A DNA stretch of 31,079 nt from a virus: positions 1 through 31,079 of IMG/VR virus record IMGVR_UViG_3300030109_002348, one strand, 5' to 3'. A model generated the notes under the pieces. That model made no database searches. It was given only the letters and a program-made list of their open reading frames with translations, and was not told the DNA's origin. The first letter of the stretch is position 1; every line of letters begins with the position of its first letter. A program made the translations under genes and the position numbers. Of this stretch, positions 6,346 to 29,530 are shown piece after piece.

Positions 6346-9300
6346 TCATGCATCTAAATCGTTGTACTGCTCTTCCTTTTCCTTCTTTTCTTTAGGCTTC
6401 TTAGGATAGTCGGATGGCTTTTCTGGGTCTTCTTCAGGTCTTTCCTTCATGTCCCAGTCGGGTATGGCGTGCTCAGAAGTTAGACTAGTTGGTCCTCTAG
6501 GACTAGCTATATCAGAACCAACGTCTATTCCCAACGCCCTACCGCCACTCATAGGATAATGACCACTGCCTGCTTTTTCCAAAGCCTCCAATGCTTTCTC
6601 CATTATCAGCAAGGCCTTCAGGGTGTCTTTTGGTTTCAACAGAATGTTCTTGTCCTTCTTGGGTTTGAGTAGACCACCGCTCTGATGCTCTATTCTCTTA
6701 GCGCGTTCTTCGGTCATACCGTCTTTTGCATTGTTCTCATCCCAATCTGCTCTATCTGCGTTAGTGCTAAGATAATCAAATTCTTTTTTCTCTTTCAACA
6801 ATTCATTGAAACCTTGTCGCCAATAAGGTTCTAGACTGTTAGCGAGTCTTAGAGAATAATCCGACTTGGTTATACTACCTATAGCCGCCATTGGATTTAC
6901 AGGCTCGTTATCGACTATCTCGTACTTGACTAAATCCTCTGGTAAATGTATTACAAAGTGACCTCTATCGATTTCCATAGCAAAGGGAATGTGTATGTTC
7001 TCTACCGCCTTTGCAAGCAAAACCCACTTTGGATGCCTCTCCTCTCCTTTCATATACGTAGACTTAGCATCCCTCAAGAGTAATTTTTGCCCATCACCGC
7101 CGAGGTCCTTGATAGCATCCTCGAAACCAACCTCATCAGTAACACGTATGGATTCGGGGCTAGGGACATGAACAGGCTCATGACTTTCGAACTGTCCCCT
7201 CAGTAACTTAACTCGCTCTCTAGTAGTAAGGTCAGTGACATCCGTCTCCTCGTACAGCATTATGTCGTTTATGTGCAAATCATCACCGACTATGGTGCAA
7301 TCAATGACATAATCCCTCTCACAGACCTTCCTGAGTGATGCTCTTATCTCATCATCGACGCCGACTTTCTCGCCATCCTCATCAGTGATATCTATTCTTT
7401 TTCCCTTTCTCTTCACTTTCACTCTCTTACCATCGTGATACTTCGATATGACCCACTCGCCAGTAAAGCCCCGTAGTTGCTCCATATCCTCAATCTCAAA
7501 TATTCTGTGAAGCGGGTCAATGAGTGGCAGTTCCTTAGGAAGTTCCGCTTTCAGCATTTTTCCAACCTGATAGAAATCATCAACCGGTGCCTCACCGGTA
7601 TTCTGGTTTATTCTCATTTGGTTGTTCTGCAAAGCAGAGAGTTGTGATAAACCGGGACTGGAAAGCAGTTCATCGACATACTCTGGAGTGTCTTGGAACA
7701 GAGCCCGTATCCAAGGCTCGCTGACTGAGTTTAACAATTGCTCATTCGGCATGTTGGCACCAACCACAGGAGTATTTTGTGAACCCATAAACTCGTGACC
7801 GATGGTCGGTGACATGGGATATCCGTAGTCCATTCTGCCTGAGTTGAAAGCCGGGACCACTGTGTTGCCCTCTAGACTGGATACTGGTCTTATCGGTACG
7901 GTCATCTTACCATGGACTGGTTTTGTTACATCACCAGCACTGGCATCCTCTAGAGGACCGGATTGTCCCTCGTCAAATGTGTAGATACCATTTGACATTG
8001 CTTGGTAATATGCTTTCATTCTTTTCGATGAGGCCTGAATGGGATAAGCACCTCGGCTTGATTTACCTCTAGGAGGCAATGGATGGGGGTGCACTTCTAA
8101 ACCGTATGTGGTTAAATCACCTCTTTCTCTAAATTTTGGACTTCCTAAACGAGTAAGCGCACTCATCGCCCCATACTCGGGATTTGCCATGTTCAATGGT
8201 ATAGAGTCTTTAGAATACGGATGATTCTCAAAATCTCCGATATGCTCCCTCATTGGTCTGTCTATATCCTTGAACTCTGAGAAGTCTTCACCGGCGATGT
8301 CTTCACCCATGCGTAGTATCTGTCCAAATGTAGCAGCTTTAGTGGGACCAACCAATTTACCCAGCATCTCCTCAACTTGTAACCTATGGGCATCGTTGTC
8401 ACTGTCTGGCATCTCAAGTAGTTCCATAGCCTCATCAATTTCTTCCTCAGTTACGTTTTTAGGGTCTTCCGGGGGATTCAACACAACAGCGTTATCCCTG
8501 AGTGTGGTTGCTAGTTCCTTGTGTGGAGACTCCTGTCCTCTGTTTTGCAGTACCTGCTCCAGACTGTCCCTCGTCCCCTCCCTCTCATGATAACCTATAG
8601 TAGAGAGGTCATGGTCACCGTCCACCATTAAACCGCGACTAGCGTCATAAGCCAAGCGCATGATATTAGCCATCGCGGTGACAGGGTCGAGAGTGCTGAA
8701 AGCATCAGGGTTCTCCTTGAGTATCCCCGGCAGTAACTTTGTTCTGGCGTATGTTACTGTTGCTCTCAAGTCAGCGTCCAGCTTTTCATAGAAATCATCA
8801 CCAAATCTACCATAAGCATCCTTACGGGTATCGAGTTGGCCCATCTCTATATTTTCTTGAGCGGCTCTCAGTCGCTCCATGTCACCTCTGAGAATCCTCA
8901 ATTCTGCTTGTCTGTTACTCGTAGGAATCTCACCGGATTCGAGTTGTCTAATACGGGCCTCTACTTCTAGCATCTCACTTAGGATGTTCTTAAATTCTTG
9001 AGTTTCATCAATATTCTTCTTTTCACCAACTAACGCGAGATACTCAGGGTGACGGTCAGGCCTTGGTCCCAATTCTGGATTATCGTACAATTCCTTAAAG
9101 TTTCTAACAAGTTTATCCGAGGGATTAGCAGGGTTGCTACCCCTGCTAAGAGAGAAATCTAATCTGTGAGCGGCTCCTCCCCTGTTCATCAGTGAAGCAT
9201 CGCCCCTTGTAGAACCTATACCAGCAAAAGGGTGGCTTTGTTGGAAGTCTGCCGCAGTCTCTCTATTGAATTTTAAATCTTGAAAATGAGTATCCTCAGT

Positions 9301-11559
9301 TGGTAACTCATCATGGAGGCTCGCCATGAGTTCTGGGAAATAAGTCGTCAAGTCATCCGTGTAGTTGTTATGAGAGCTTCTAGTCTTAGGACGTTCTCCG
9401 ACACCTCTTTTTGAAACACCGTGTCTAGTCGATATCTGTGCAGGTGTGAGAGGAGTTGACTGCTCAGACATGAGAGGACTGATTAGCAGACCTCCGTATG
9501 CACCGACATTGTCGTTATCGAGAATAGTTTTATCCTTGCCTTCGGGGTGTGCTGGGTCGTTAAATATGAGATAGTTAGAAAGGAATTCGTTGTACGTTGC
9601 TGGGTCCTTACCAAGACCACCCCTATCACCGAAGTACTTGGTCATCAAATGACCCAACCCCCTCCTCTTACCATCCATGAAGATATAGTGGTCATCGTGC
9701 CCATCAGGTAAATCGGATGCTCTAGGCGGCGCATGGCCCGACCTTAGGAATCCCTTTGCATTCTTGATATCCTTGGACTGCATACCCAAAGAGACACTTC
9801 TGTCATATTGTTTCAGTGCTCTTTCAACGTCATCCTTGGGCAACAAGGGTCCTTCATATAACTCACCGGGGATTGTTGGATGCTCATCTAGTTCATTCAG
9901 TTCACTGTCGTACCCGGCGAGACTCAGAAATCCATCTCTGGATAGTTGCGCCTGATTTGACCTATTAGCATGAGCCAGAAATCCCTCTGCTGGAGAATCG
10001 CTTGTCTCCAAGTGCGCATTTACAATCGGGTGATTAAAATCATCATGGGCGAATAATTCACCCAACTGTATAGCCTCATTAGGGTCTTCCACATTTTTAT
10101 TGAGCACTGAGTTCAATTCTTTCAGTAACTTATCGTAAAGTTTTGCCTCTCTCAGAGCGGTTGCCATACCACCTTCAGTGCCTTTGAATTTAGTGTCATC
10201 TTCGGATTCTATGGTCTTTGGCACATTAGCGGGTCCTGACTTTTGATTCCTGCCGAACCAGTGGTACTCAGCCCCAGTATTCATCTCTAGGTTCTTCTTG
10301 AGTCTAGTCATAGGGAACTCCTTACCATCGGATAACTTGACTAATTGACGTTCAGGGTCATCAGTCGTATGCTTATTGATGTGCTGAAGCACCTTGGTTC
10401 GGTCCTCCGGCTTCAAGAAGTACAAGCCCTTCATCAGAGTGTTCCAACCCATGGAGTGGCTGTGTCTCATGCTATATGGCTCAGCAGCTTCTGGATTCCG
10501 AGTCCTGAGGTCATCCGCCTCTTGCTGCGATAAACCCTCAGTCGGGTAAACAGTCGTAGTGGCAGTGCCACCTCTTGACATCTTGTCCATCCTATCTTTG
10601 AAGTGCTGCATCTGCATGGCCCTCTCTTTATTCTCTTCCGATAGCCCAGAGAATTTTTCCTCAAGAGCAGCCATGTCAGTCCCCTCCTCTTCCTTCCATC
10701 TCTCGTAATCGTTGATGCGTGTCGTTTCCATGTGGTCATACGGACTATCCACATCATTCGACGTAGGTCCACCGAAGAAGGAGAAGGCTCTCTCACCCTC
10801 ACGTCTATCGACACTGTCGTAAATCGGAGAGCCTTTTTTCCTGTGATGCTTCTCATGAGCGTTCTCGGCTCTCATAGCTTGTTTGGCGAAGGACTCCTCC
10901 TCAGGAGCCTCTACCATTTTCTCATGAAAGTCATCCTCCCACCATGGTGTTTCATCATGACCGAAGTACTTCTCAAAGAGCATGGACTCATAGGTGGGTC
11001 TACCAGTAACGATGTTCTTCATTCTCAGAGGGTGAACATCCGGGTGGAATGGGTGGTGAATAGAATAGTCTTCTCCAGCATCAGGTTTGGCACCGGGCCA
11101 TTCACCATGCGCCATGCCAATGTCGTGATTACCGGTTATTCTGTCCTCCATCCCTATTACTTGCCCACTTTCATCAATCACAGTTTTCCTATAAGGATGA
11201 CTGGTCACATGCTGAGATAGAAGCCTAGAGAGGTTCCTTTCCCCAAGACCGAGGGTTCTATCCTTTTTTCTCTTTTCCTCTGCCTGCCTAACTTCTGGCA
11301 GACTAGCGAATCTATCCTCATCGCCCTCAAGCATCTGAATTAATTCGTTTGGTGATAGCCTTTGTTTTAGAATATCAGTAGCGGCCTTCAAACAGAGTAA
11401 ATCGTCATTCGTGGCTTCATAGTCTATACCTGAGCGTATGATGTTGTCAACGGAGAGAAGGTAGTGACCTGCTTCTTCCTCATAATCATATCCAAGTGTT
11501 ATTGACTTGAGGAGGTCTATTCTGTTTCTTTCAAGAACCTGTAGACCGTCTTCACGCAC
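6346..11559 (-). CDS. Giant virion-associated protein (1737 aa) with degenerate DNA-ligase-like domain
   Basis: The largest gene in the window, between the portal region and the protease. It begins at GTG with AAGGTGATTAA just upstream. Residues 1-1330 are charged, helical and His/Asp/Pro-rich with no domain I recognise. About residues 1350-1515 resemble an ATP-dependent DNA ligase adenylation domain: WVISKYHDGKRVKV (motif I-like), YVIDCTIVGDD (III-like), DVTDLTTRERVKLL, then GGDGQKLLLRDAKSTY and HPKWVLLAK (IV/V-like). The catalytic lysine position is occupied by Tyr1374, with Lys1373 one residue off, the motif III Glu is Thr, and the motif IV Lys is Arg. It therefore looks catalytically dead. 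The C-terminus is Lys/Glu/Pro-rich. A minor head or internal, perhaps ejected, DNA-binding protein is plausible. Confidence 0.72.
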   Translation of the reverse strand: MREDGLQVLERNRIDLLKSITLGYDYEEEAGHYLLSVDNIIRSGIDYEATNDDLLCLKAATDILKQRLSPNELIQMLEGDEDRFASLPEVRQAEEKRKKDRTLGLGERNLSRLLSQHVTSHPYRKTVIDESGQVIGMEDRITGNHDIGMAHGEWPGAKPDAGEDYSIHHPFHPDVHPLRMKNIVTGRPTYESMLFEKYFGHDETPWWEDDFHEKMVEAPEEESFAKQAMRAENAHEKHHRKKGSPIYDSVDRREGERAFSFFGGPTSNDVDSPYDHMETTRINDYERWKEEEGTDMAALEEKFSGLSEENKERAMQMQHFKDRMDKMSRGGTATTTVYPTEGLSQQEADDLRTRNPEAAEPYSMRHSHSMGWNTLMKGLYFLKPEDRTKVLQHINKHTTDDPERQLVKLSDGKEFPMTRLKKNLEMNTGAEYHWFGRNQKSGPANVPKTIESEDDTKFKGTEGGMATALREAKLYDKLLKELNSVLNKNVEDPNEAIQLGELFAHDDFNHPIVNAHLETSDSPAEGFLAHANRSNQAQLSRDGFLSLAGYDSELNELDEHPTIPGELYEGPLLPKDDVERALKQYDRSVSLGMQSKDIKNAKGFLRSGHAPPRASDLPDGHDDHYIFMDGKRRGLGHLMTKYFGDRGGLGKDPATYNEFLSNYLIFNDPAHPEGKDKTILDNDNVGAYGGLLISPLMSEQSTPLTPAQISTRHGVSKRGVGERPKTRSSHNNYTDDLTTYFPELMASLHDELPTEDTHFQDLKFNRETAADFQQSHPFAGIGSTRGDASLMNRGGAAHRLDFSLSRGSNPANPSDKLVRNFKELYDNPELGPRPDRHPEYLALVGEKKNIDETQEFKNILSEMLEVEARIRQLESGEIPTSNRQAELRILRGDMERLRAAQENIEMGQLDTRKDAYGRFGDDFYEKLDADLRATVTYARTKLLPGILKENPDAFSTLDPVTAMANIMRLAYDASRGLMVDGDHDLSTIGYHEREGTRDSLEQVLQNRGQESPHKELATTLRDNAVVLNPPEDPKNVTEEEIDEAMELLEMPDSDNDAHRLQVEEMLGKLVGPTKAATFGQILRMGEDIAGEDFSEFKDIDRPMREHIGDFENHPYSKDSIPLNMANPEYGAMSALTRLGSPKFRERGDLTTYGLEVHPHPLPPRGKSSRGAYPIQASSKRMKAYYQAMSNGIYTFDEGQSGPLEDASAGDVTKPVHGKMTVPIRPVSSLEGNTVVPAFNSGRMDYGYPMSPTIGHEFMGSQNTPVVGANMPNEQLLNSVSEPWIRALFQDTPEYVDELLSSPGLSQLSALQNNQMRINQNTGEAPVDDFYQVGKMLKAELPKELPLIDPLHRIFEIEDMEQLRGFTGEWVISKYHDGKRVKVKRKGKRIDITDEDGEKVGVDDEIRASLRKVCERDYVIDCTIVGDDLHINDIMLYEETDVTDLTTRERVKLLRGQFESHEPVHVPSPESIRVTDEVGFEDAIKDLGGDGQKLLLRDAKSTYMKGEERHPKWVLLAKAVENIHIPFAMEIDRGHFVIHLPEDLVKYEIVDNEPVNPMAAIGSITKSDYSLRLANSLEPYWRQGFNELLKEKKEFDYLSTNADRADWDENNAKDGMTEERAKRIEHQSGGLLKPKKDKNILLKPKDTLKALLIMEKALEALEKAGSGHYPMSGGRALGIDVGSDIASPRGPTSLTSEHAIPDWDMKERPEEDPEKPSDYPKKPKEKKEKEEQYNDLDA

Positions 11560-13093: not shown

Positions 13094-14881
13094 TTATGCA
13101 CCCCGAAACCGTCTCGCATTCATTAAAGCACGACTATTTTGCTCCTGTTGGGAAGGTTGCATTCCTCGCTGTTGAACTGAGGATATTGGAGAGCCTGAAC
13201 CGGGGGTTGACCTTCGAGCCGGAGCAGCAGGACCTCTAGGGCTTCTAATGCCAACTCCCTCTCCTCCGGGCTGTGAGGGAGGCATTACTTGTCTAAGCAT
13301 ATTCGGTGGAACCTGTCGATTCAGACCGGTTGCCCCTATAGGTCCCCCCATCATCGGAGGCGCCTGACCGGCTGGCATACCCATACCACCCATAGGCGGA
13401 CCACCCGGTGGCATACCCGGCGGCATACCCGGAGGCATGCCCTGTTGCATAGCTTCCTCAGGTGGTAATTTCTTGTAGGAGAATCTAATATCCCTATCTC
13501 CCTCTTCAAGTAGTTCAGGCTTGTAACCAAGCATTTGCATTCTTTGAGCGAGGTTGACTTCCATCTCATCCCTTCTGAGTCTGGTTATCTCATCCTCTTC
13601 TTCATTTGGATATAGTGTAATCTTCCAATCTGTAATGCCCATCTGTCGCAACATTCTTGGGAATAATATGTCTGTGTATACTTTTTGACCAAACTCAACT
13701 GCCCTGTTCGTGACTAAAATTTGCATGCCCTCATTACCAAGGCCACCGCTCTTTCCACTGTCTATCATGAAAATGCTACTAACCCCATAGAACGCAGCAA
13801 TCCTGTTTCTCATTTCATCTCTTACAGCAGTATACTGCATTTCTTCAAGAGTATCCATGAACTTGACCCAGTTTACTCCCCCTCTACCGGTCTGACTTTC
13901 AATACCTACTTTAGGTATGTAGTGGGGGTCCCTCTCCATCTTCTCATCAACTGCTTTCCAGAAAGATTTCATCGACTCTAAGTTATCAGTGGTCACGGAT
14001 ATGATACCTTTTGGAGTCCTTCTTTTCTGGTATGCAGTATACATGTAATTGTCCATTGCTGTGAGGGTCATGGCTTGTCTCCACATCGTGTTGACTGGGC
14101 TTCTACCATACAATTTACTCGGTGAGTACTTGCTGACGTGAATCACTTCACCCTCTAGATAATACTGGGTCTTACCGCTACCAGCCATGTTGGCATAATG
14201 AGCATCCTGCATGTGATTGCCACATACAGTGCACTTCTCTTCTTGACCGGGGTAAGCAACTTGGTCTCTATGGATTGGGCATACTTTGTATCTACCACCT
14301 CTGACCCCCCTCTTATCAGATATAATTCTCATGAAGATAGGGTCACCGCGAATAACCTCCTTGATTCTGTAGTGTTGTATCTCTCCTGTGTCTGGGTCAA
14401 TAAAGTAGTCTTTGACTAATATTAGGAAAGCATCATCAACCACATTGAGGTCCTTCTCTATTTCGAACATGACTTGCATGAAGTTCTGTTCCATTTGATT
14501 CTCGCCTTTTAGCAACCACTTTGCATACGTGGTCTGATGGGGGTCAGGACCCCTTACCTCACCACCACAGATGTCACAAGCATCTACTTCAAATTGATAT
14601 TCTTCATCACACTCAACACACTTTTTCTGGAACTTCTTCTCCCAGTAATATCCTCTCCTGAATATCTCCTGTTGTAATTTTGAGATAACAGTTCTAAGAA
14701 TAAGATTTTCATGAGAAACTGCGTAAAGAGCGGGTATAGTTATCCCTTGAGCCAGAACTGGCTCTTGTATACCAGTTGTATAGAGAGGCATCTGGGGTTG
14801 AGGGGTAGAGCGGATTCTGAATGGACTCCTTATCGCATCTATAAATCGGCCTACTGGTCCCCTCTCTGCTTCATCAACCAT
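13094..14881 (-). CDS. Portal protein with two Zn-ribbon-like inserts and Pro-rich tail
   Basis: 595 aa from the chosen ATG, which overlaps the previous stop as TAATG and has AGGAGGG 6 bases upstream. A longer frame starting 6 codons earlier is less likely because that site would lie inside the protein. The core (about 250-440) matches portal features: YGRSPVNTMWRQAMTL, 'IISVTTDNLESMKSFW', 'MRNRIAAFYGVSSIFM'. The portal forms the dodecameric DNA channel at one capsid vertex and docks terminase. Unusual are two cysteine sites: C88/C91 with C102/C105, and C201/H204 with C217/C220. The last 120 residues are Pro/Gly/Met-rich with a GMPP tandem repeat. Confidence 0.85.
   Translation of the reverse strand: MVDEAERGPVGRFIDAIRSPFRIRSTPQPQMPLYTTGIQEPVLAQGITIPALYAVSHENLILRTVISKLQQEIFRRGYYWEKKFQKKCVECDEEYQFEVDACDICGGEVRGPDPHQTTYAKWLLKGENQMEQNFMQVMFEIEKDLNVVDDAFLILVKDYFIDPDTGEIQHYRIKEVIRGDPIFMRIISDKRGVRGGRYKVCPIHRDQVAYPGQEEKCTVCGNHMQDAHYANMAGSGKTQYYLEGEVIHVSKYSPSKLYGRSPVNTMWRQAMTLTAMDNYMYTAYQKRRTPKGIISVTTDNLESMKSFWKAVDEKMERDPHYIPKVGIESQTGRGGVNWVKFMDTLEEMQYTAVRDEMRNRIAAFYGVSSIFMIDSGKSGGLGNEGMQILVTNRAVEFGQKVYTDILFPRMLRQMGITDWKITLYPNEEEDEITRLRRDEMEVNLAQRMQMLGYKPELLEEGDRDIRFSYKKLPPEEAMQQGMPPGMPPGMPPGGPPMGGMGMPAGQAPPMMGGPIGATGLNRQVPPNMLRQVMPPSQPGGEGVGIRSPRGPAAPARRSTPGSGSPISSVQQRGMQPSQQEQNSRALMNARRFRGA
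13407..13442 (-). repeat. Three tandem 12-bp units encoding GMPP repeats in the portal tail
   Basis: Three adjacent 12-base units (ggNggcatNccc on the plus strand) encode GMPPGMPPGMPP. They lie in the Pro/Gly-rich C-terminus of the portal and are probably prone to slippage in copy number. Confidence 0.8.
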
Positions 14882-16023
14882 TACAATCCCTCCTGCCATT
14901 TAGCGACGTCGTCGGCGCTCACGCCCCACTCTGCGAGAAGGGTCTGGCTCTTTGCCTTGTCGTCGCTCCAGTTCGAGTACCTAACCACTCTTTTGAGTTC
15001 TTCTTTCCTCATAGAGTCTGGCTCCTCAATAAAAGCAAGCACTGCTTTTGCCTGAGTTTTCTTCATCTGAAGATGAGGCATAATCTTGTCAAGCAATTTT
15101 TTGATATCGCCTTTGGAGTAGAATTGCAATCTGTGTTGGCTTCTTTGGCTATCTTTGTACACTTTCTGGTCAAGTTGTAAAACACCACAGTCCAAGACTT
15201 TTCTAAGTTCCTCGCAATGTAGTCTACCTCTTGTGCCAGTAGCGATGAAACCTGCTCTTGGCTCGCCTCTCTTTGTTATAGTAATGTAACCATCAGCGTC
15301 AAGGAAACCAGCAGCATAAGCGTATGGGTCTTTGAGGACAAGACCGTGTTTGTCCATCTTGACGAATGTACCTCTTTGTGCTCCATTAACAATATCAACC
15401 TCTTCTCCATATAGAGACAAAAGTTTGGAGAGTTTGTTGGCAGTTAGCCCCGGCATCTTCTCAATACTATCAGATTCAAACAGAGCTCTAGCGCTCATAG
15501 GTCCGTTCATTTTGAGAAGATTGACACATTTGCTGATTGTTTCTTGCTCTTTACCAGTGAGTCTGTCCATCTGTGAGAGTGTAGACTTCCACATCTTACG
15601 AGCATCTTTCTTCATGCTCATTGCATCTACCCAAGTTTTTCTCTCTTCATCACCCCATACCTCCTCGTGCTCATTCAGCATCTTGAGGGTCTCATCTGCG
15701 TTTCTCCACATGAGGCATGCTTTGACTAAACCTACCTTACGGGTGTCGTAGAACTTTCTGAGGGACTTGAGGCTTTTGTCCGATAGGTCAAAGTTTCTTA
15801 TTTCTCCAAGATACTCATTAGCCCAATCAACTGATTTTAAAGTCATCTCGACTTCCATGGCTTTGAGCATTCTAACATCTTGAATCAAAGCATCAATATC
15901 TTGCTTCTCATCTTTGTTGTGTCTTCTTGCTTTTCTCAGTCTTGATACAATCTCAGTAGCACTGACGCCAAGGTTATCTTCAAACCATCCGTCACCGCTA
16001 ACTGAAAATGAACTCATATCCAA
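14881..16023 (-). CDS. LAGLIDADG-domain protein between terminase and portal
   Basis: 380 aa. Residues 1-155 are helical and charged. Residues about 160-225 look like a winged helix (ETISKCVNLLKMNGPMSARA...GLTANKLSKLL). Residues 234-335 resemble a single-motif LAGLIDADG fold: YAAGFLDADGYITI with acidic Asp242 and Asp244, then 'RLHCEELRKVLDCG' and 'LQFYSKGDIKKLLDKI'. The C-terminus has another small helical unit. It is not an intein: it has its own start and a TAATG coupling to the portal. Homing enzymes may be parasitic, but the fused N-terminal part and location suggest a domesticated packaging role such as DNA recognition or nicking. The start codon is TTG or, two codons later, ATG. Confidence 0.7.
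   Translation of the reverse strand: MDMSSFSVSGDGWFEDNLGVSATEIVSRLRKARRHNKDEKQDIDALIQDVRMLKAMEVEMTLKSVDWANEYLGEIRNFDLSDKSLKSLRKFYDTRKVGLVKACLMWRNADETLKMLNEHEEVWGDEERKTWVDAMSMKKDARKMWKSTLSQMDRLTGKEQETISKCVNLLKMNGPMSARALFESDSIEKMPGLTANKLSKLLSLYGEEVDIVNGAQRGTFVKMDKHGLVLKDPYAYAAGFLDADGYITITKRGEPRAGFIATGTRGRLHCEELRKVLDCGVLQLDQKVYKDSQRSQHRLQFYSKGDIKKLLDKIMPHLQMKKTQAKAVLAFIEEPDSMRKEELKRVVRYSNWSDDKAKSQTLLAEWGVSADDVAKWQEGL
14888..14894 (-). promoter_or_regulatory. Ribosome-binding site that sets the portal start
   Basis: AGGAGGG, 6 bases before the ATG at 14881. It sits inside the last codons of the LAGLIDADG-domain gene and argues for the shorter portal start and translational coupling. Confidence 0.65.
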
Positions 16024-16076: not shown

Positions 16077-17561
16077 TTATGGCACCATCCATGAAGGGGT
16101 CGACCGCCCACCCCTAAACCAGTTGTCGAAACCCGGCATATAATCATCAAGGAGCATTACTGACCCTCTGAACTCCTTTGAGGCCCAATTAGCAAGAGCT
16201 ATACTCATGGCTAAGTCGTCATGAACACCAACGCTTTCTAACTTGCCATTCTTCTGCATACCAAACCTATTGAGTTCCTGCATGACTTGATTTGTATAGT
16301 TTCTACTTCTCTCATCACCATATGGTAATTTGATTTGTTCTTGTTCAAATGCAAGGAGGAGCGACATAAACAGCGACTCCTTCTTTGTACGTGTGGTCAT
16401 GAATACCCTGATTGGCATGTCAGAGGCTAACTCCCTCATTTCCTGCTCAAGCATTCTTTGGAAGTTGTTACCCTCAAGTTCTATCAAATCAGGTTTGAAT
16501 TTGTTATTAAGTAAAACCATCATGCGCTTTTGCGCCATCGACGACATACCTCTCTCATGGACAACATGAACTATCTCCTTTATCTCTTCATCTGGCTTTA
16601 TCCTCATTACAGTCATGGCAGTAAAGTCAGCGTTTTTATCAGATGCGATAGCGGGGTCATGACCAATGAAGTGATGACCAAAGACACCATCAGCCTCACC
16701 CTCTTCATTGTAGAAAGTCTCAGCCCTGTCAATCAATACCAAGTTAGTGTCTTTTGCTTTCTCTAGCATGTCCATCGGGAACATACTCGCTACATCATGG
16801 ATTGGCTCACATAGATACTCACGGCTGAATTGTATAGCAGGCATCGAAAGCCTCCTCTCGTTCAGTGCCTCTAAGTTCCAGCGGTCGGGCCAAAGAGCCT
16901 CGCCCTTCTCGTTTATTGCCGGGAATGTCTCTACTCTAAACGTCTCTTTCTGCTCCAACTCGGCATAAAGGTCGTTGTAGGAGAACGGTGTACCAACCAT
17001 CATCAGTTTGCTACTGTGGTGCAGAACAGGAAGCAGTACACCGTAGAACCAGTCAGCGGTCTTAGCCAACTCAGTAGATGTGGTACCCCAGAGGATATCG
17101 TCACATACAACTATGTCAGGGTGGAATCCACGGGTAGCACCACCAACTGACTTTGCCATTAGACGTGAGCCGTTTGTAAAATTGAAGTAGGACTTTGCCC
17201 ACCTGTCGCTGTCGTCCTTCAAGTGTCTAAGTATGGGTGTGCCCTCAACGAGGTTCCTGATGAATCGCATGTGCTCAAGGGTCTGCTCAAGAGAATGTGA
17301 GAAAATCATGATGTGAGTATTGGGCCTGAAAGCCGCCAACCAGAGAGCGTATGACATGAAGAAGACAGATTTACCGTGGTCACGAGATGCCTTAACGCAA
17401 TAATACTGATGATTCGCTAGACCGTCGTGCCAAGATTCGTGATGGTCATTGTACAGAAACTCAAGCATCTCAGTAAAGAAATACTTAAACGATTTTTTGG
17501 ACATCTCCCTGTCCATGTTGAGAATGAACTCTTCCATGTCCCCTTCATTGGACAAAATCAA
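16077..17561 (-). CDS. terL: Terminase large subunit (packaging ATPase-nuclease)
   Basis: 494 aa, typical length. The ATPase half shows a terminase-type Walker A, KASRDHGKS (57-65), Walker B IVVCDD (150-155) and a coupling motif MMVGTP (187-192). The nuclease half shows Asp302 in FIGHDPA, acidic residues in LIELEGNN (359-366) and the C-terminal VGVHDDLAMSIALA (Asp448/Asp449). These fit the RNase-H-like metal site. It pumps viral DNA into the prohead through the portal and cuts it. The start is uncertain: TTG at 17561 overlaps the previous stop, but the TTG two codons on, 7 bases after GGGGG, or Met9 are alternatives. The gene is followed by a 53-base gap. Confidence 0.93.
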   Translation of the reverse strand: MILSNEGDMEEFILNMDREMSKKSFKYFFTEMLEFLYNDHHESWHDGLANHQYYCVKASRDHGKSVFFMSYALWLAAFRPNTHIMIFSHSLEQTLEHMRFIRNLVEGTPILRHLKDDSDRWAKSYFNFTNGSRLMAKSVGGATRGFHPDIVVCDDILWGTTSTELAKTADWFYGVLLPVLHHSSKLMMVGTPFSYNDLYAELEQKETFRVETFPAINEKGEALWPDRWNLEALNERRLSMPAIQFSREYLCEPIHDVASMFPMDMLEKAKDTNLVLIDRAETFYNEEGEADGVFGHHFIGHDPAIASDKNADFTAMTVMRIKPDEEIKEIVHVVHERGMSSMAQKRMMVLLNNKFKPDLIELEGNNFQRMLEQEMRELASDMPIRVFMTTRTKKESLFMSLLLAFEQEQIKLPYGDERSRNYTNQVMQELNRFGMQKNGKLESVGVHDDLAMSIALANWASKEFRGSVMLLDDYMPGFDNWFRGGRSTPSWMVP

Positions 17562-22653: not shown

Positions 22654-23054
22654 TAGTGCTCAACTCCAGCGTAATCAAAACAGTATTCCATTGTCTTCTC
22701 GCCCAGTCTTATGTAGAAGTCAGTAGCAACTGACTCATTCACTATACAACTAGCCATATCCTCACAAAGTTCTTTGAAATTAGTAACGGACTCAGCCATC
22801 AAATCCCTCAAAGGTAAAATTTCAGCAGGGTCATCGGTATCGGAGATTTGGTCTAGTACAGATACAACATCAGTAAGTGACATCATAGTGACATGCTCAT
22901 GGTTCATGTTTGCGTAATGTTTGAATCTTTTACATACAAGCACACAGTATTCCATAAAAAGAGGTAATTCCATTTCTAAGTCAATAAACTCTTTTTGATA
23001 CAACTGAAAACCCGGATGAGTTATCTGCATTAAATCAACAGTTTTTGCCATCAT
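22653..23054 (-). CDS. Hypothetical all-helical protein next to small terminase, 133 aa
   Basis: The sequence is predicted to be almost wholly helical, with long amphipathic stretches (ELPLFMEYCVLVCKRFKHYANM; DLMAESVTNFKELCEDMASC). It has six cysteines but no clustered CxxC. GGAGGGAATTGAAC precedes the ATG, and the gene overlaps the terminase-like gene by 4 bases (ATGA), so the two are coupled. It may assist DNA packaging. No family is recognised. Confidence 0.6.
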   Translation of the reverse strand: MMAKTVDLMQITHPGFQLYQKEFIDLEMELPLFMEYCVLVCKRFKHYANMNHEHVTMMSLTDVVSVLDQISDTDDPAEILPLRDLMAESVTNFKELCEDMASCIVNESVATDFYIRLGEKTMEYCFDYAGVEH

Positions 23055-23737
23055 TGTTCAATTCCCTCCACTTGCTCTTGTAACTGTGCTTTGATTCTCA
23101 TCCAACTCTCAGGGCTCTCCTTAGCTAGTTCGACCTTAAGGATGTTAATTGTGTTATTGACCTGAGCGCCTTCACTTGTGGTTCCCCAAGTTGTTTGTAG
23201 TTTGACTAAGTCCTTTAGTGATTCTCTAACTTCCTTGTGCAGAGACACTGCATTTCTGATGAACCCGTCTTCGTGAACCGAGGACTCATTCATGAGTTCC
23301 TCGAACTTTCCGTTCAATCTCTCTAGGTTGTTTCGCATGACGTTCACCTCTTGACCAACGGTTATCGCTACTTCAGTAGCAGCGGACTTTTGCACTAGTG
23401 GTTGAAAGTGATTCTTCATGTGGTTGTAGACAGCTTCTTCCTTGATGCCCAACTCTTCTGCGATAAGGTCAGACTCTGCACCGTTTGTGAAATATCGGTG
23501 TTCAAAAGAAGCCCTGTTACTATGAGTGCAAATTACACATGATGGATTAGACGCTAGATGGTATTGACCCATGTGATTTCTAAAATGACGGTCGGCTGTG
23601 TTGGCTCTCCAACCCATCTCTTTGTCTAGTCTTTGACAACTGGTTTCGCCATTCTTGAGAGCCTCTTCCAACTCCTCCCTCTGCTCGCTGATGCAGAAGG
23701 AACAAGACCGTTTTACAACTGGCTTGCGCTCAACCAT
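23051..23737 (-). CDS. terS: Probable small terminase subunit with duplicated CxxC/HxxxH DNA-binding unit
   Basis: 228 aa. Two related N-terminal units are visible. The first has C12xxC15 ... H51xxxH55, and the second C67xxC70 ... H96xxxH100. Each also has a helix-turn-helix-like core, clearest in the second (LIAEELGIKEEAVYNHMKNH). Residues about 115-175 are coiled coil. The C-terminus has 'LVKLQTTWGTTSEGAQVNNT', a pattern seen in small terminases. DNA-binding N-terminus, oligomerising middle and C-terminal contact to the large subunit is the standard terminase layout. TerL lies 5.5 kb downstream in the same orientation. No ribosome-binding site is obvious. A host-type regulator is the alternative. 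Confidence 0.55.
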   Translation of the reverse strand: MVERKPVVKRSCSFCISEQREELEEALKNGETSCQRLDKEMGWRANTADRHFRNHMGQYHLASNPSCVICTHSNRASFEHRYFTNGAESDLIAEELGIKEEAVYNHMKNHFQPLVQKSAATEVAITVGQEVNVMRNNLERLNGKFEELMNESSVHEDGFIRNAVSLHKEVRESLKDLVKLQTTWGTTSEGAQVNNTINILKVELAKESPESWMRIKAQLQEQVEGIEQ

Positions 23738-23776: not shown

Positions 23777-24037
23777 CTAAAACCGCGTAATCCTATGGTA
23801 TACTGACGACAAGAGAAAAAGAGAGAGAAAGACGCCCACAACCATCATGGTCATCTCAGATTGACTTATCTCGTTTGCTTTGAATAGTAATATACCAACA
23901 AAAACGACGATTGCGCTTATCAGTTGAACCATCACCATGTCAACAATAATACTTCTTTTTGGAGCAAGTAACTGCATTGACATATCTGCAAATTGGCTTG
24001 GTATTGGAATACCGGGCATACTTCTACCACTCATCAT
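23777..24037 (-). CDS. Two-TM small membrane protein, 86 aa
   Basis: Two hydrophobic helices are clear: about residues 29-52 (SIIVDMVMVQLISAIVVFVG...) and 62-80 (MMVVGVFLSLFLLSSVY). They are separated by a short polar turn (KANEISQSE), and the C-terminus is basic (HRITRF). GGAGG lies 9 bases before the ATG pair. Size and topology are compatible with a holin-like protein or an accessory membrane anchor. With no lysis enzyme visible here, the holin call is weak. It stands just before the packaging genes. Confidence 0.65.
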   Translation of the reverse strand: MMSGRSMPGIPIPSQFADMSMQLLAPKRSIIVDMVMVQLISAIVVFVGILLFKANEISQSEMTMMVVGVFLSLFLLSSVYHRITRF

Positions 24038-24039
24038 AA

Positions 24040-24696
24040 TTATCTGCCTCCAGTCATCAATGTTCTGAGGAAAGAACCACCCGCTTCAGCAGCTCCAGTC
24101 ATTATACCGGGGTCAGCCATCGCTGCTTGCAATGCACCATGCATCATACTGGACTCAGCCCTCTGCATCATCTGCATTCTCTGAGTCTCTGCGTTACTAA
24201 CTGCTGTGTTGACATCGTTCTGTAGACCGCTCATCTGAGCCATGATATTCTCAGGACTCATAGTCTGTAGGTGATTCGGTAAGGAAGCAGGGTCCAGTTT
24301 GAAGACACCGAGTTCATCATCGAAGTTGAAGGATGCTTCCTTCAATACACTCAACAAGGAGAAGGTCATCAGTTGGCCCATTATGTCAAGGACTAAGTTG
24401 AAGGTATTGCTTTGAACGAATCTCTCAACGGGAATCTGGGTATTGAGCATGGTGATTAGAACTTCAGTTTCAGTTGGTGGCATGACGCCGTTTTGATATT
24501 GGGGGTCCATCCCGGTGGCGCTTCCCAAGAACGCGCCCATTAGGTTAGGCTGTTGTGGTTGTGCGTACCAATTGTTGGTAGGAGCACTATAACCTGAAGA
24601 AAACCCATTCTGATAGCCATTCCCAGTGGGTGCTCCAGTCATAGAAAGATTCAACGAGGAGCCTGTATGAGGTTGATTTTGGTTGAATCCCATCAT
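24040..24696 (-). CDS. Hypothetical Gln/Asn/Met-rich protein, 218 aa
   Basis: The N-terminal 80 residues are Gln/Asn/Gly/Pro-rich and likely disordered (GNGYQNGFSSGYSAPTNN). The central part is helical (FVQSNTFNLVLDIMGQLMTF). The C-terminal part is Met/Ala-rich and helical (NAETQRMQMMQRAESSMMHG). GAGGTGAG precedes the ATG, which overlaps the previous stop (TAATG). No motif for an enzyme or metal site is present. It is coupled to the 336-aa gene, so they may act together. A virion or assembly component is possible. Confidence 0.58.
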   Translation of the reverse strand: MMGFNQNQPHTGSSLNLSMTGAPTGNGYQNGFSSGYSAPTNNWYAQPQQPNLMGAFLGSATGMDPQYQNGVMPPTETEVLITMLNTQIPVERFVQSNTFNLVLDIMGQLMTFSLLSVLKEASFNFDDELGVFKLDPASLPNHLQTMSPENIMAQMSGLQNDVNTAVSNAETQRMQMMQRAESSMMHGALQAAMADPGIMTGAAEAGGSFLRTLMTGGR

Positions 24697-25706
24697 TACT
24701 GACTCACCTCGCTTGTTTGGTTCGGAGGAGGGGTAGCCACTTGAGGGTGTTGGTTGATTATAGGCTGAGGTGGCACTTGTTGCATCTGTTGCATCTGTTG
24801 CGCTAATACTTCTTGGAAAGCCTGAGTTGGAGTTTTCATATCGCGTAGTTCCTTTTGGAACATTCTGTTATCAAAGGTAATCACAGTGAGGTCATTCTCC
24901 TCGGTCTCTGGATTCGCATAGAACTGTACACTGATGCCCTTGCTTTTTCTAGCATCAGCCATAATCTCAGCGAAGAAGGGTTCGTATTTGTCCACCATTG
25001 GGTGTTGTGGTCCAGTTTCTGTGCCTGCCAGTGTCGCTACTGGCACTGAGACTAGGCTGACGCCCTTTCTCATCTTATCTCTGAATCGGCTAGGCTTCAT
25101 CTCTGCCTCTGCTTCTTCTTGCTCTTCCCACTTTCTGAGAAGGTGGTACAGGTGTAGGTGTTCAGGACAGTATGTGCCTCTCATCTTTCGACCACTGGTT
25201 ACACCCTCTCTTGCTACAAAGGCTTCTGCCTCTCCTGTGATTGGATTTTGCCAATATAGTTCCCAAAGTGATTTGCCTGTTTCATCATCGCATATTCTAG
25301 CATATAGGTTGTCATGTTGTATCAGGTCCTTGACGTTGCAACCATCAATGACACAAGTCCCAGTGTCCTTGGCGTACCTGTAAGGACTGAATCTCAACCA
25401 TCGCCTTGGGTCAAAGATAGACCTCTTTGTTGGTTTGAGTAGCTTGTATGCCTGTTTGATGTCCTGTCTTCTTGCTTTTCTAGGGTCAGGGTGACGAGAA
25501 GGATAGAAGTTTACTTTTGGCACTTCAATGTTCTTTTCAGTAGCGAATCTCTGCATCTGTTGTTGAGCTGCTTGTTGTTCAAGCAAGGCAGCGTGTGTGA
25601 AGTTAGGGTTGCCTTGTTGCGCTAGTGCCATTAAAGCAGCCTCATTCATTTGGCCAAGACTTTGTTGCGATTGTTGATTCTGAAAAGGATTGATTGCGTT
25701 TATCAA
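24696..25706 (-). CDS. Hypothetical protein with Cys/His site and Gln-rich ends, 336 aa
   Basis: The first 55 residues and the last 40 are Gln-rich (LLEQQAAQQQMQRF; LAQQMQQMQQVPPQP). The middle contains an Arg-rich stretch (DPRKARRQDIKQAYKLLKPTK) and a Cys/His segment spread over about 65 residues: GTCVIDGCNV, ARIC and GTYCPEHLHLYHLL, enough ligands for a zinc site. It starts at TTG with GGGGGAG 7 bases upstream. The nearby genes are an AbrB-like protein, a GTPase and membrane proteins. I do not recognise the family; it may scaffold the cluster or bind nucleic acid. Confidence 0.6.
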   Translation of the reverse strand: MINAINPFQNQQSQQSLGQMNEAALMALAQQGNPNFTHAALLEQQAAQQQMQRFATEKNIEVPKVNFYPSRHPDPRKARRQDIKQAYKLLKPTKRSIFDPRRWLRFSPYRYAKDTGTCVIDGCNVKDLIQHDNLYARICDDETGKSLWELYWQNPITGEAEAFVAREGVTSGRKMRGTYCPEHLHLYHLLRKWEEQEEAEAEMKPSRFRDKMRKGVSLVSVPVATLAGTETGPQHPMVDKYEPFFAEIMADARKSKGISVQFYANPETEENDLTVITFDNRMFQKELRDMKTPTQAFQEVLAQQMQQMQQVPPQPIINQHPQVATPPPNQTSEVSQ

Positions 25707-25709
25707 AAG

Positions 25710-25931
25710 TTACTCCCCCTCAAAAGCTGGAGATACGTGAATTATCATACTTTCCCCTTCTACCTTGAGTTCCCAAGCAATTTTTTCACCAGACATCAAA
25801 CCAAACTGTTTTACAATCCAAGAAGGAACGGTAGTACGTAGGGAACCAGTGCCAGTTGAAGTAAGAGAAGTCTTCGTCACACTGCGACCCATGATGGTCC
25901 GAGGGGGGACTACACCAAAAAGGTCACTCAT
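25710..25931 (-). CDS. AbrB/SpoVT-MazE-like DNA-binding protein, 73 aa
   Basis: Residues about 28-54 fit the AbrB/MazE swapped-hairpin fold: GTGSLRTTVPSWIVKQFGL followed by a MSGEKIAWEL turn and strand. Such proteins dimerise and bind AT-rich DNA, and they are common in archaea and their viruses. It sits just after the GTPase gene. The start is ATG at 25931; no convincing ribosome-binding site is visible, so it may be translated by coupling to the GTPase. It is a candidate regulator of the AT-rich gap at 27566-27721, from which this unit is probably transcribed. Confidence 0.7.
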   Translation of the reverse strand: MSDLFGVVPPRTIMGRSVTKTSLTSTGTGSLRTTVPSWIVKQFGLMSGEKIAWELKVEGESMIIHVSPAFEGE

Positions 25932-25941
25932 GAGGTCAGGT

Positions 25942-26658
25942 TTAGTAATTCAGCATATCAAACAAAGTTTGCTCAACATTCCAACCTATTCTAGTCGCCA
26001 TAAAAGCTCTATTGGTAGGCACTCCGGCCTTTTGTAATCTAACTAAATCATCTCTAAAGGGGTCGAAAATTTTGTGCTCACCTATTCTGCCCTGTTGCCA
26101 AAGCGTAGCAGCCTTGTCATCAAAGAATCTATCAGCCTTGTTTGCCACTAGAAGTAGCATTTTGGGAGTGTACTTCTTGCCTTTCCACCAACTCTTTAGG
26201 TTTCTATATCTGTAATTTCTGTAAAGAATAGCATCAACTAGGTATTTGAAACCAGCAACTTGTTGGAGAGCATCATCGCCACCCATGAAAGCCCGGTCAT
26301 CAAACATGAAAACGACATACTCACACTGTCTTGAGACCATATCGTCAATCCACAGATTCCAAAATCTGTCTTCCCCGCCTATGTCAGAGGAATGGACAAC
26401 TCTTCTCTCTCCTTGCCAACGTAATCTTTTCCTTGTTGGTTTAGGTAATATGTAACGGGTAAGGAGTTTGAAATGGTCCGTCCTCTCATCCACTGGTATC
26501 TCTTCCATCTCACCGGGTGTAGTCATGTATCTGTCAAGAGTAGTTTTACCAACCATCGAAGCCCCATATATTCCAATACGACGTGATTTCCAATTGTTGT
26601 ATATCTGTTGACCCCATAATGCAGCGCCGACTAATGCACTTCCTGCCATTGCCGCCAC
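25942..26658 (-). CDS. Ras/Arf-like small GTPase with hydrophobic N-terminus
   Basis: 238 aa with GTPase signatures in the correct order. G1 is GASMVGKT (32-39), G3 is DIGG (92-95) followed by EDRFWNLW as in Arf/Ras-type 'D.gGqe.fr.lW', G4 is NKAD (173-176), and an ATRIG segment near 220 may be G5. Residues 2-16 are hydrophobic (AAMAGSALVGAALWG) and may anchor the protein in a membrane. It starts at GTG with GAGGTGAT upstream. Its immediate upstream neighbours are two membrane proteins, so it probably acts at the membrane as a switch. A viral P-loop protein of another kind is possible, but NKxD strongly favours guanine nucleotide. Confidence 0.8.
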   Translation of the reverse strand: MAAMAGSALVGAALWGQQIYNNWKSRRIGIYGASMVGKTTLDRYMTTPGEMEEIPVDERTDHFKLLTRYILPKPTRKRLRWQGERRVVHSSDIGGEDRFWNLWIDDMVSRQCEYVVFMFDDRAFMGGDDALQQVAGFKYLVDAILYRNYRYRNLKSWWKGKKYTPKMLLLVANKADRFFDDKAATLWQQGRIGEHKIFDPFRDDLVRLQKAGVPTNRAFMATRIGWNVEQTLFDMLNY

Positions 26659-26669
26659 GGGCTATCACC

Positions 26670-26969
26670 TCAGGATACTAAACCAACTAACCAATCTGCA
26701 AAGTTTTCGACTTGCGTAAGTCCCCAGTTAACGGTGTTCTCCCAGAGACTAAAATCTCCCCAGTAGAACTCGGCTGCTGATACTCCTAACATACCAATAA
26801 CGGTCATGAGTATTGTTCTTACCCAACCTATACCCCATTCATATGTGTTGTCTACCGTATTCGCCATATGCATGGCTCTGAGAGTTTCCTCTACAGAATC
26901 ATCAGCAACACTTCTGAATATTCTTGGACCTTTGATTCCGGGTAACCCAAAGAGTCCGGGTAGTGGCAT
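26670..26969 (-). CDS. Single-TM protein coupled to the GTPase, 99 aa
   Basis: One hydrophobic helix at about residues 47-67 (GWVRTILMTVIGMLGVSAAEF) is followed by an aromatic-rich amphipathic tail (WENTVNWGLTQVENFADWLVGLV). The N-terminus is Gly/Pro-rich (PLPGLFGLPGIKGPRIF). The ATG overlaps the previous stop as TGATG, and the GTPase gene starts 11 bases after its stop. It is a likely membrane partner of the GTPase. No family is recognised. Confidence 0.65.
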   Translation of the reverse strand: MPLPGLFGLPGIKGPRIFRSVADDSVEETLRAMHMANTVDNTYEWGIGWVRTILMTVIGMLGVSAAEFYWGDFSLWENTVNWGLTQVENFADWLVGLVS

Positions 26970-27565
26970 CAGTTACCGCCACGCTTGGACTTGTACCTTA
27001 AGTCTGGTGTACCGTCTTTCTTCAAACGGGGAGTATCTTGACCATTTAGCAAATCATCAGCCATGGAATTCAATCCTAATTCCAAAGGTTGGTCCTGACT
27101 CGCTTGATGAGATGGTATGCCGGGATTGAAATTATTGTGATAATCAGTCCCTAGACCGGAGAAACCTGCACTATTGAAAGATGGTGAGACTTTATCTGGG
27201 TTCTCAGCCATCCATCGTAGTTCATTTTCCAATTGTGCTTCTTGCATCCTCATTTCTAACTCAGCTCTTCTTGAGTCGAAAGTCATCTGCGTTTGACGCA
27301 TTTGTCTCGACCTCATGTTCTGCATTTCTGCCAATTGCACTCGTTCTTGCATCTGTTGCTCGAAGAACATCTTGAAGAAGTAATACGCAATTGTCTGTAC
27401 TGCCAATGCCCCCATAGCGTATGTCATTCCGTTTATCCAAGATTCACCTGCCGAGCCTGCTGGTAACCAAATACCAGAATCATAAACTCCGACGGCAACT
27501 CCTACTAGCGCAGATTGGGCTAATATTAGCCCTGTCATTTTCATATCTTGTGAGCCCTCTGTCAT
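26969..27565 (-). CDS. Two-TM protein with cytoplasmic-type coiled coil, first gene after the AT-rich gap
   Basis: I start this at the ATG at 27565, which has AGGAGAG 6 bases upstream; a 22-codon longer version has no such site. TM helices lie at about residues 11-30 (TGLILAQSALVGVAVGVY) and 44-66 (SWINGMTYAMGALAVQTIAYYF). A Gln/Glu/Arg/Met-rich coiled coil follows at 68-118. The C-terminus is Asp/Pro/Lys-rich and likely disordered. Together with the 99-aa protein and the GTPase it forms a compact membrane cluster that opens this transcription unit. Receptor, holin-like or membrane-remodelling roles are all conceivable; none is shown. Confidence 0.68.
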   Translation of the reverse strand: MTEGSQDMKMTGLILAQSALVGVAVGVYDSGIWLPAGSAGESWINGMTYAMGALAVQTIAYYFFKMFFEQQMQERVQLAEMQNMRSRQMRQTQMTFDSRRAELEMRMQEAQLENELRWMAENPDKVSPSFNSAGFSGLGTDYHNNFNPGIPSHQASQDQPLELGLNSMADDLLNGQDTPRLKKDGTPDLRYKSKRGGN

Positions 27566-27571
27566 ATTCAA

Positions 27572-27578
27572 CTCTCCT
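27572..27578 (-). promoter_or_regulatory. Ribosome-binding site that sets the start of the two-TM coiled-coil gene
   Basis: AGGAGAG, 6 bases before the ATG at 27565, argues against the longer upstream start. Confidence 0.55.
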
Positions 27579-27721
27579 GACCTCGTATCTGGCACATAGG
27601 GTAGCATGATAAGGGTTGTGTACAGAAACACGGTCAGATATTTCTAATAATTCTAATGTATTGTCTATACAAATACAAATATATATTTATATGTATAGAT
27701 AGATACAAAGAATAATCGGAA
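27579..27721 (-). promoter_or_regulatory. AT-rich intergenic promoter-like region
   Basis: The longest gap in the window without an established gene. It is strongly AT-rich in a region of otherwise moderate base composition. On the minus strand it contains CATATAAATATATATTTG near 27678-27695, which fits an archaeal TATA-type element, upstream of the two-TM coiled-coil gene. A 7-base inverted repeat (TCTATAC/GTATAGA, 27664-27699) and three ATACAAA heptamers (27667, 27673, 27703) lie around it and may be operator sites, perhaps for the AbrB-like protein. It may also end transcription from the genes to the right. Assignments are from sequence composition only. Confidence 0.5.
27664..27699. repeat. 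Inverted repeat TCTATAC/GTATAGA around an AT-rich core
   Basis: Seven-base perfect arms are separated by 22 bases that hold the TATA-like stretch. This is an arrangement suited to a dimeric repressor covering the promoter. Confidence 0.5.
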
Positions 27722-28470: not shown

Positions 28471-28664
28471 ATGACACCCACCATTTTCTTCATGTTCATC
28501 GGTGCCCATGCATCACAGACATGGTCTGCACGGCAGTTGAAGTCGTACCACTCGCAGTACCCAGTCATGGGGTCATCGGTCTTGCTCGAATCCCAAGCCT
28601 TGCAGTTGCCACACTTCTTGCCTGTAGTGGCTTTTCTGTAATTTGGTGCATCTGATTTGGCCAT
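28467..28664 (-). CDS. Small Cys-rich protein, 65 aa, HiPIP-like Cys pattern
   Basis: The ATG at 28664 overlaps the previous stop (TAATG) with AGGTGG 8 bases upstream, so the GTG four codons earlier is unlikely. C18xxC21, C37, C44 and C50 with Tyr/Trp residues and the ending VCDAWAP match small Cys-rich phage proteins with a pattern similar to high-potential iron-sulfur proteins. Metal or Fe-S binding is plausible. The role is unknown. Confidence 0.65.
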   Translation of the reverse strand: MAKSDAPNYRKATTGKKCGNCKAWDSSKTDDPMTGYCEWYDFNCRADHVCDAWAPMNMKKMVGVI

Positions 28665-29530
28665 TAGCAATTCCACCTTTTTAATGCTGCACCTTTTGGA
28701 GTTAGTTTACCATCCTTACTCGTCGGCCCTTTACTACCACTCATGCGAGCGCAGAAAGATTTTCTTCTTTTTGCTCTCTTGCTTCCGGGCTTGAGTTTAG
28801 ATGGTTTGGTGGTAACAGGTGGTTTTAGATTAGCACCTGTCTCTCGCTTGAACTTATCACGGCCCGCTTGATTGAGGCCACCTTTCTTGTGATGGCGCTT
28901 TGGATTGTAACCATGAAAGGGCTTTGATTTCTTCTTGCCCTTTTCAAAAACAGAGTCTAGAAGAGACATAGAAGCCTGTTGCATTGGTGTACAACAATCG
29001 CAAGATTCCGACTTCATTGTTATCGGAGTCAGGTTAGCTCTTGGTATTCCACCACTCCTAACATTGCTTTGTGTACCAGCCAAAGCCCCCCAACTTGGCT
29101 CTTGTTGTGATTCTGGAGCCGATAGGTCCCCTGCTCTTACGCCGACTACACCCACGTCTGCCTCAGAAAGGCCGTAGTTTTTGGCCCTTTCCAATGCGAA
29201 CTGGTACGCTAGTTCTGGATTATGGGTTGTGTAGGATATCTTTTCCTCATTTCTGAGACTGGGTGGGATGTAACGTCTAGACCTACCTCTAGTGTACCCT
29301 CCTCTGATTCCCTGTTCTAACACACTAGGCATGTTGACCGTACCGTGATATTCGGTTACTGGTCCAAGACTACTGGGAAAATCGGGGTGAAACTCACCGA
29401 GTTCAGTCTGCCTCGTCATCGACTTTTTTACAGCAATAGACTTGTTGCCATACTTCTTCTCCCATTTCTGGGCTAACTTAGGCTGCGTGGCATGGAGAAA
29501 ACGTCTTTGTTTCTCTGAACGGAACGGCAT
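28664..29530 (-). CDS. ADP-ribosyltransferase-like segment joined to a Cys/Lys-rich tail, 288 aa
   Basis: The N-terminus, MPFRSEKQRRFLHA, is a widespread phage peptide. Residues about 57-135 look like an ART/2'-phosphotransferase-type fold: EYHGT (60-64), a 'VLEQGI' helix, 'ISYTTHNPELAYQFA' (98-112) and 'VGVVGVRAGDL'. A CDCC cluster is at 177-180. The end (KGGLNQAGRDKFKRETG, then RRKSFCARMSG and RWNC at 285-288) matches a domain common in marine viruses (I believe DUF6321). Whether the enzyme part is active cannot be judged. If active it could modify host proteins or RNA. A weak GAGAGAT precedes the ATG. Confidence 0.62.
   Translation of the reverse strand: MPFRSEKQRRFLHATQPKLAQKWEKKYGNKSIAVKKSMTRQTELGEFHPDFPSSLGPVTEYHGTVNMPSVLEQGIRGGYTRGRSRRYIPPSLRNEEKISYTTHNPELAYQFALERAKNYGLSEADVGVVGVRAGDLSAPESQQEPSWGALAGTQSNVRSGGIPRANLTPITMKSESCDCCTPMQQASMSLLDSVFEKGKKKSKPFHGYNPKRHHKKGGLNQAGRDKFKRETGANLKPPVTTKPSKLKPGSKRAKRRKSFCARMSGSKGPTSKDGKLTPKGAALKRWNC

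Follow-up and report, generated by a model that had tools for sequence, protein, structure and literature searches.

A conserved gene block around a Ras/Arf-like GTPase in Magrovirales-like tailed viruses, with a possible role at the host membrane

Among the described systems closest to the GTPase reported here are the Arf/Sar/Arl proteins (PF00025; ARL8 and the structure 8oun among them), in which the G domain comes straight after an N-terminal membrane-seeking helix and carries a DxGGQ-like G3, a Trp 11 residues past the Asp and an NKxD motif. In the beta subunit of the SRP receptor (SR-beta, PF09439) a membrane-anchored Arf-like G domain docks a soluble partner, and in the MglA-type Ras-like GTPases of bacteria and archaea, and in conservons, a prokaryotic switch GTPase is accompanied by operon partners. 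Rab/Ras GTPases with the Ras fold are encoded by giant viruses. Phage holin/lysis cassettes have small proteins with one or two transmembrane (TM) segments in the late unit. According to a review, no holin gene has been identified in isolated archaeal viruses, most of which exit by an unknown route, and membrane use and exit by archaeal tailed viruses are largely open (PMC4456609). Here we describe a Ras/Arf-like switch from viruses in which our searches found none annotated earlier; the literature search gave no paper joining magroviruses and a GTPase, and an annotation within the main magrovirus papers, their supplements or the reference genomes is possible.

The GTPase and its neighbours in the window

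The source contig is IMG/VR record IMGVR_UViG_3300030109_002348, and the whole stretch analysed, 31,079 nt, is called the window. Clades 1 and 2 are two sets of relatives distinguished below. On the minus strand the order, with others between the two-HTH protein and TerL, is as follows.

27632-27721, minus strand: AT-rich intergenic gap upstream of TM220, likely promoter region of the block
26969-27565, minus strand: TM220, a hairpin of two TM segments and, behind it, a long charged region that is probably a coiled coil; likely ATG start at 27565
26670-26969, minus strand: TM99, one TM segment (47-65), with a conserved pre-TM stretch of consensus DDSVEETLRAMHxANTVDN
25942-26658, minus strand: Ras/Arf-superfamily GTPase, 238 aa, GTG start, predicted N-terminal helix at residues 2-23
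25710-25931, minus strand: AbrB/MazE-like small protein, an optional passenger between the GTPase and G336
24696-25706, minus strand: G336, a Cys/His protein with invariant C118, C180, H183 and H185; fourth in the conserved order
24040-24696, minus strand: G218, a protein rich in Gln and Met; fifth in the conserved order
23777-24037, minus strand: G86, a clear two-TM protein present throughout clade 1
23051-23737, minus strand: two-HTH protein, TerS candidate, downstream of G86 and upstream of TerL
16077-17561, minus strand: TerL, downstream of the block
13094-14899, minus strand: portal, downstream of the block
3736-4875, minus strand: MCP, downstream of the block

PHROG matches in the window are to MCP, portal and TerL, and the portal is nearest to those of the haloviruses HCTV-5/HVTV-1. 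Relatives reach 85-118 kb, and a family B polymerase (PolB) is present in 13/13 of the large clade-1 ones tested. Magrovirales are recognised as tailed viruses of ~90-110 kb whose polymerase is of family B and whose HK97-type head genes resemble those of Druskaviridae. These features were all found, and on gene content the contig belongs with PolB-encoding archaeal tailed viruses of ~90-118 kb, in keeping with this order. The magrovirus literature gives Poseidoniales as the magrovirus host; Poseidoniales are the presumed host of the GTPase-bearing viruses, which are probably tailed viruses infecting abundant marine archaea. Elsewhere in the window, a gene between TerL and portal (14881-16023, minus strand) contains the motif AGFLDADGYI, of the kind usual in LAGLIDADG homing endonucleases, and is possibly a homing element. 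A 1737-aa head-region protein (6346-11559, minus strand) carries a ligase-like motif (SKYHDGKRVKVKRKGKRI), and a long protein at a comparable place in HVTV-1 is annotated as 'zeta toxin'. In 28664-29530 (minus strand) a YHGT ... VLEQGI ... YTT pattern, seen by eye only, recalls an ADP-ribosyltransferase-like domain.

Genes within the block are separated by -1 to 11 nt. The topologies of TM99, TM220 and G86 are judged by hydropathy. Those of TM99 and TM220, together with the spacing, agree with the initial annotation, in which a one-TM protein and a two-TM coiled-coil protein were clustered with the GTPase. The longest form of TM220 is 26969-27631 (minus strand), with a GTG at 27631 as first possible start and TM segments at 32-50 and 72-90; the family alignment favours the ATG at 27565, where the initial annotation had also ended the cluster. 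The AT-rich, promoter-like gap proposed before the cluster is shared by the family. Averaged over 75 loci, AT content climbs from ~0.52 to 0.70 some 80-200 bases ahead of the conserved motif in TM220; a sigma-70 promoter scan, a model unsuited to archaea, was at chance level. Judged by its composition, the gap is likely to be the promoter of the block. An AbrB-like gene does follow the GTPase, but the similarity to AbrB/MazE is weak (Pfam E 0.14-0.16) and the gene is optional; as it is missing in many relatives, we rejected it as part of the module. For G336 a fold search of the PDB gave nothing at E<=0.001, and no GEF, GAP or effector fold was recognised. The protein at 23051-23737 has two Cys/HTH repeats and a helical tail (HTH_20, E 3.8e-4) and no clear Pfam or PHROGs annotation; it is likely the terminase small subunit.

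In the ~57 kb late unit of a 108.6 kb relative (G026), the clear sense-strand TM genes are TM220, TM99 and G86, with one more sense-strand ORF borderline for TM. In the same genome a late ORF some 5,500 codons long (44413-60990; L477, L478) probably encodes a giant adhesin or tail protein, and there is a cluster of small TM proteins outside the late unit (92225-93628; L479:12225-13628). A 195-aa TM protein of this cluster has fast-varying, often repeated relatives in 11/16 large genomes, and the cluster provides rival candidates for lysis or superinfection functions.

Motifs, predicted fold and kinship of the GTPase

A G1, a G3 and a G4 had been read from the window protein, and the reading is borne out by 94-100% conservation of these motifs in 73 distinct relatives. 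G1 is GASMVGKT (residues 32-39), G3 is DIGG (residues 92-95), G4 is NKAD (residues 173-176), and T60 is the candidate switch-I Thr. G37, K38, T39 and T40 are 98% conserved, T60, D92/G95 and N173-K174-A175-D176 are 100% conserved, and G94 stands at 94%. The G1 pattern kept throughout is G-x-Y-G-x-x-x-x-G-K-T-T, with an invariant Thr 21 residues on. The clade-1 G3 reads DxGG[Q/E]xRFWNLW, with the Arf-type Trp 11 residues past the Asp, and a canonical G5 SAK is present in clade-2 GTPases. The residue after DxGG is Q in 35 of the 73, E in 28, D in 8 and H in 2. Because Q occupies this catalytic position in only 48%, GTP hydrolysis may be slow. The GTPase is under strong purifying selection (median dN/dS 0.051).

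Structure prediction, proposed in the initial annotation as a check, recovered a Ras/Rab/Rho-like fold. The AlphaFold2 model (pLDDT 78, pTM 0.79) is of low confidence at residues 35-53, the end of the P-loop and the start of switch I. Foldseek gave 1032 PDB matches at E<=0.001 (best E 6e-8), and the 50 listed are all Ras-superfamily GTPases or complexes containing one, with TM-scores of only 0.4-0.5 when normalised by query length. In BFVD the 50 best structural matches are all from giant viruses and mostly Ras/Rab or other GTPases, no tailed-virus model being among these 50.

As a single sequence the window GTPase is below every curated cut-off, and single-sequence searches of Pfam, PHROGs, PDB and INPHARED (tblastn) gave nothing significant; the signal comes from profiles, structure and the two-clade alignment. 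The suggested profile search did produce Arf, SRPRB and small_GTP matches, but these were weak and below cut-off, and there was no match to MglA. Among 38 members, Pfam Arf matched 13 (best E 3.8e-5), SRPRB (PF09439) 19 (best E 5.5e-5; 17.3 bits against a 25-bit cut-off in one member), Roc 19 and NCBIfam small_GTP 21 (best E 2e-5). For the curated models (Pfam Ras/Arf/Roc, NCBIfam small_GTP) all bit scores shown lie under the cut-off. The best PDB match of the two-clade profile is 8oun_A, 'GTP-binding protein' (E 4.4e-4), which we take to be an Asgard Arf-related protein; Rab33B is next, and SR-beta (5ck3, E 0.033) and ARL8 are weaker. On its motifs and predicted fold, the protein is confirmed as a member of the Ras/Arf superfamily. 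With these matches and the Arf-type Trp in the G3, it is best seen as a new family inside the Ras superfamily, most like Arf and SR-beta and a member of neither.

The N-terminus had been described as hydrophobic. The predicted helix is indeed moderately hydrophobic, but its family-mean KD of 1.1-1.3 (1.1 at the lower end) is under the TM threshold, which makes a shallow or peripheral attachment as likely as a TM anchor. Gly2, the site for myristoylation, is absent in the aligned GTPases with a complete N-terminus.

Conservation of the block in two clades

Relatives of the GTPase were found on 119, 215 and then at least 430 viral contigs, depending on the query, and not in isolated phages or PHROGs. 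With the INPHARED and BFVD comparisons, this is in keeping with the initial view that such GTPases are rare in tailed viruses. In a collection with one genome per prokaryote species, scanned with two peptide patterns that remote homologues would escape, the only cellular matches were on three short contigs, in Maricaulis, Asgard and Cytophagaceae MAGs (L162, L163, L164); since these contigs from unrelated bins show the viral gene order, they are apparently misbinned virus.

The clade-1 order, TM220-TM99-GTPase-G336-G218-G86-TerS candidate, is constant in 81 + 64 loci. Both membrane genes stand beside the GTPase in all contigs long enough to tell, and the only clade-1 loci without them are on contigs that start no more than a few hundred bases from the GTPase. 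A GTPase kept without the membrane genes, which the initial annotation held to speak against a dedicated module, was looked for in >200 loci and none was found. The proposed trio is thus invariantly linked, and with two more genes that move together with it the module goes beyond three genes. Contigs found by portal or PolB that have no GTPase also have no TerS candidate, or end beside it. This suggests that they were cut before the block, and we rejected them, as truncated contigs, as counterexamples to linkage. All PolB-located records of at least 80 kb that were searched have the GTPase, one of them as a contig-end fragment, in a survey that is not an unbiased census because the PolB query was drawn from GTPase-bearing genomes. 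No homologues of the block were found in HVTV-1 or in Methanomassiliicoccales virus vir335.

One PolB-located record with a divergent GTPase (E 2e-34) led to 80 loci that form clade 2, in which the GTPase has ~30% identity to that of clade 1. Among the clade-2 records G072-G085 most genomes have PolB split into ORFs of ~560 aa and ~310 aa, and a split PolB has been described for Aoguangviridae. The block of clade 2 lies ~3 kb past the MCP start, whereas that of clade 1 precedes the TerS candidate and TerL, and its order is again two-TM protein, one-TM protein, GTPase, Cys/His protein, Q-rich protein. Compared profile against profile (hhalign, 8 x 10 matrix), the clades match in the GTPase (E 1.7e-34), G336 (E 3.2e-6) and G218 (E 1.1e-5), with all off-diagonal pairs at E 1.6e-3 or worse. 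The TM pair is not significant between clades by profile (E 0.39, 0.13), its clade-2 counterparts being matched in position and topology only, and a recognisable G86 counterpart is absent in clade 2. That the block keeps its order at a changed genomic place speaks most strongly for a functional unit, and the five-gene block is well supported as a module.

Possible roles and likeness to known systems

Tentatively, and with somewhat less than even confidence, we favour a reading in which the block is a late-expressed, membrane-bound switch built around an Arf/SR-beta-like GTPase that recruits viral partners for assembly or exit. The GTPase would lie against the host membrane on the cytoplasmic side, anchored there by its own N-terminal helix together with TM99, the TM220 hairpin or both. 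In one nucleotide state it would dock G336, G218 and TM220's charged arm at the membrane, and hydrolysis of GTP would let them go again. Intermediates of the head or of DNA packaging, or an exit site, could in this way be assembled at a selected spot on the membrane and at a selected moment. The working mode might resemble that of Arf or SR-beta, where the G domain also lies right behind an N-terminal membrane-seeking helix. The TM proteins of the late unit and the position of the block, which is among morphogenesis genes in both clades, suggest a membrane step late in infection. What we infer is that the GTPase binds and hydrolyses GTP, that a complex forms, that partners are recruited to the membrane, and that the block acts late, in assembly or exit. 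The wider proposal, that a dedicated module of one switch, two anchors and two soluble clients runs a GTP-controlled, membrane-associated assembly or exit step, is core to an order of archaeal tailed viruses and represents a mechanism new for tailed viruses, is one that we consider possible and hold loosely.

The same membrane proteins might instead form the exit device proper, with TM99, TM220 and G86 as holin- or pore-like disruptors and the GTPase as timer or gate of rupture in a host that has no peptidoglycan. These three are the clear membrane proteins of the G026 late unit, and the lack of identified holin genes cited above would leave room for such a device; the block also has two soluble conserved proteins and lies amid head and packaging genes, however, and the second, fast-varying TM-protein family of 11/16 genomes could do lysis, so that we regard this as unlikely. 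Placement within the morphogenesis region, beside MCP in clade 2 and beside the TerS candidate and TerL in clade 1, would equally suit membrane proteins and a GTPase carried in the particle, for example as a membrane-active plug or tail part acting at entry. Similarity to structural proteins was looked for and none was found, and we know of no small switch GTPase that is a virion part of a tailed virus, which makes this reading quite improbable.

The resemblance to Arf, SR-beta and Rab, and the Rab/Ras genes of giant viruses, could also point to host takeover: the GTPase would imitate or hijack a small-GTPase or protein-targeting pathway of the host, the TM proteins serving as its membrane receptor, and so redirect host membrane processes or block superinfection. 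We think this improbable too: a virus-internal role is favoured by the position among morphogenesis genes and the conservation with viral partners, the scan with two peptide patterns gave no close cell-encoded relative, and there was no PADLOC match. For want of such a match the block was also rejected as a defence system. Some GTPase members score weakly with AAA_24, ATPase_2 and Sak4 and the block adjoins packaging genes, as might be expected of a degenerate P-loop NTPase or packaging ATPase helper rather than a nucleotide switch; given the invariant NKxD, the DxGG, the SAK-type G5 of clade 2 and the Ras fold, such an identity is very improbable.

Under the favoured reading of a membrane-bound switch, the GTPase block may be how archaeal tailed viruses use the host membrane late, for assembly or exit. 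Small, core and strongly constrained, the block centres on a switch of a known type and occurs in abundant marine viruses that are uncultured; neither virus nor host need be in culture to express the testable candidates it offers, the GTPase and two TM proteins.

Compared with the systems introduced at the outset, the viral GTPase shares the motifs and domain layout of Arf/Sar/Arl proteins, but it is below the Pfam cut-offs, has no Gly2, has the catalytic Gln in about half of its members, and differs further in a G3-G4 spacing longer by about 20 residues and in its viral operon partners. From SR-beta, whose Pfam model matches half of the members weakly, it is set apart by an N-terminal helix weaker than a TM segment, and no SR-alpha-like partner was found. 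The giant-virus Rab/Ras GTPases are likewise virus-encoded, but they are of eukaryotic type, belong to eukaryotic viruses and have identities of about 8-20% over the structural alignments. Whereas MglA-type GTPases and conservons share the combination of a prokaryotic switch and operon partners, the viral block is without a Roadblock/LC7 partner or an MglA match and has TM partners in a viral genome. Finally, the small TM proteins recall phage holin/lysis cassettes, but the block has no endolysin and no significant PHROG lysis match, and combines its membrane proteins with a conserved GTPase and two soluble partners.
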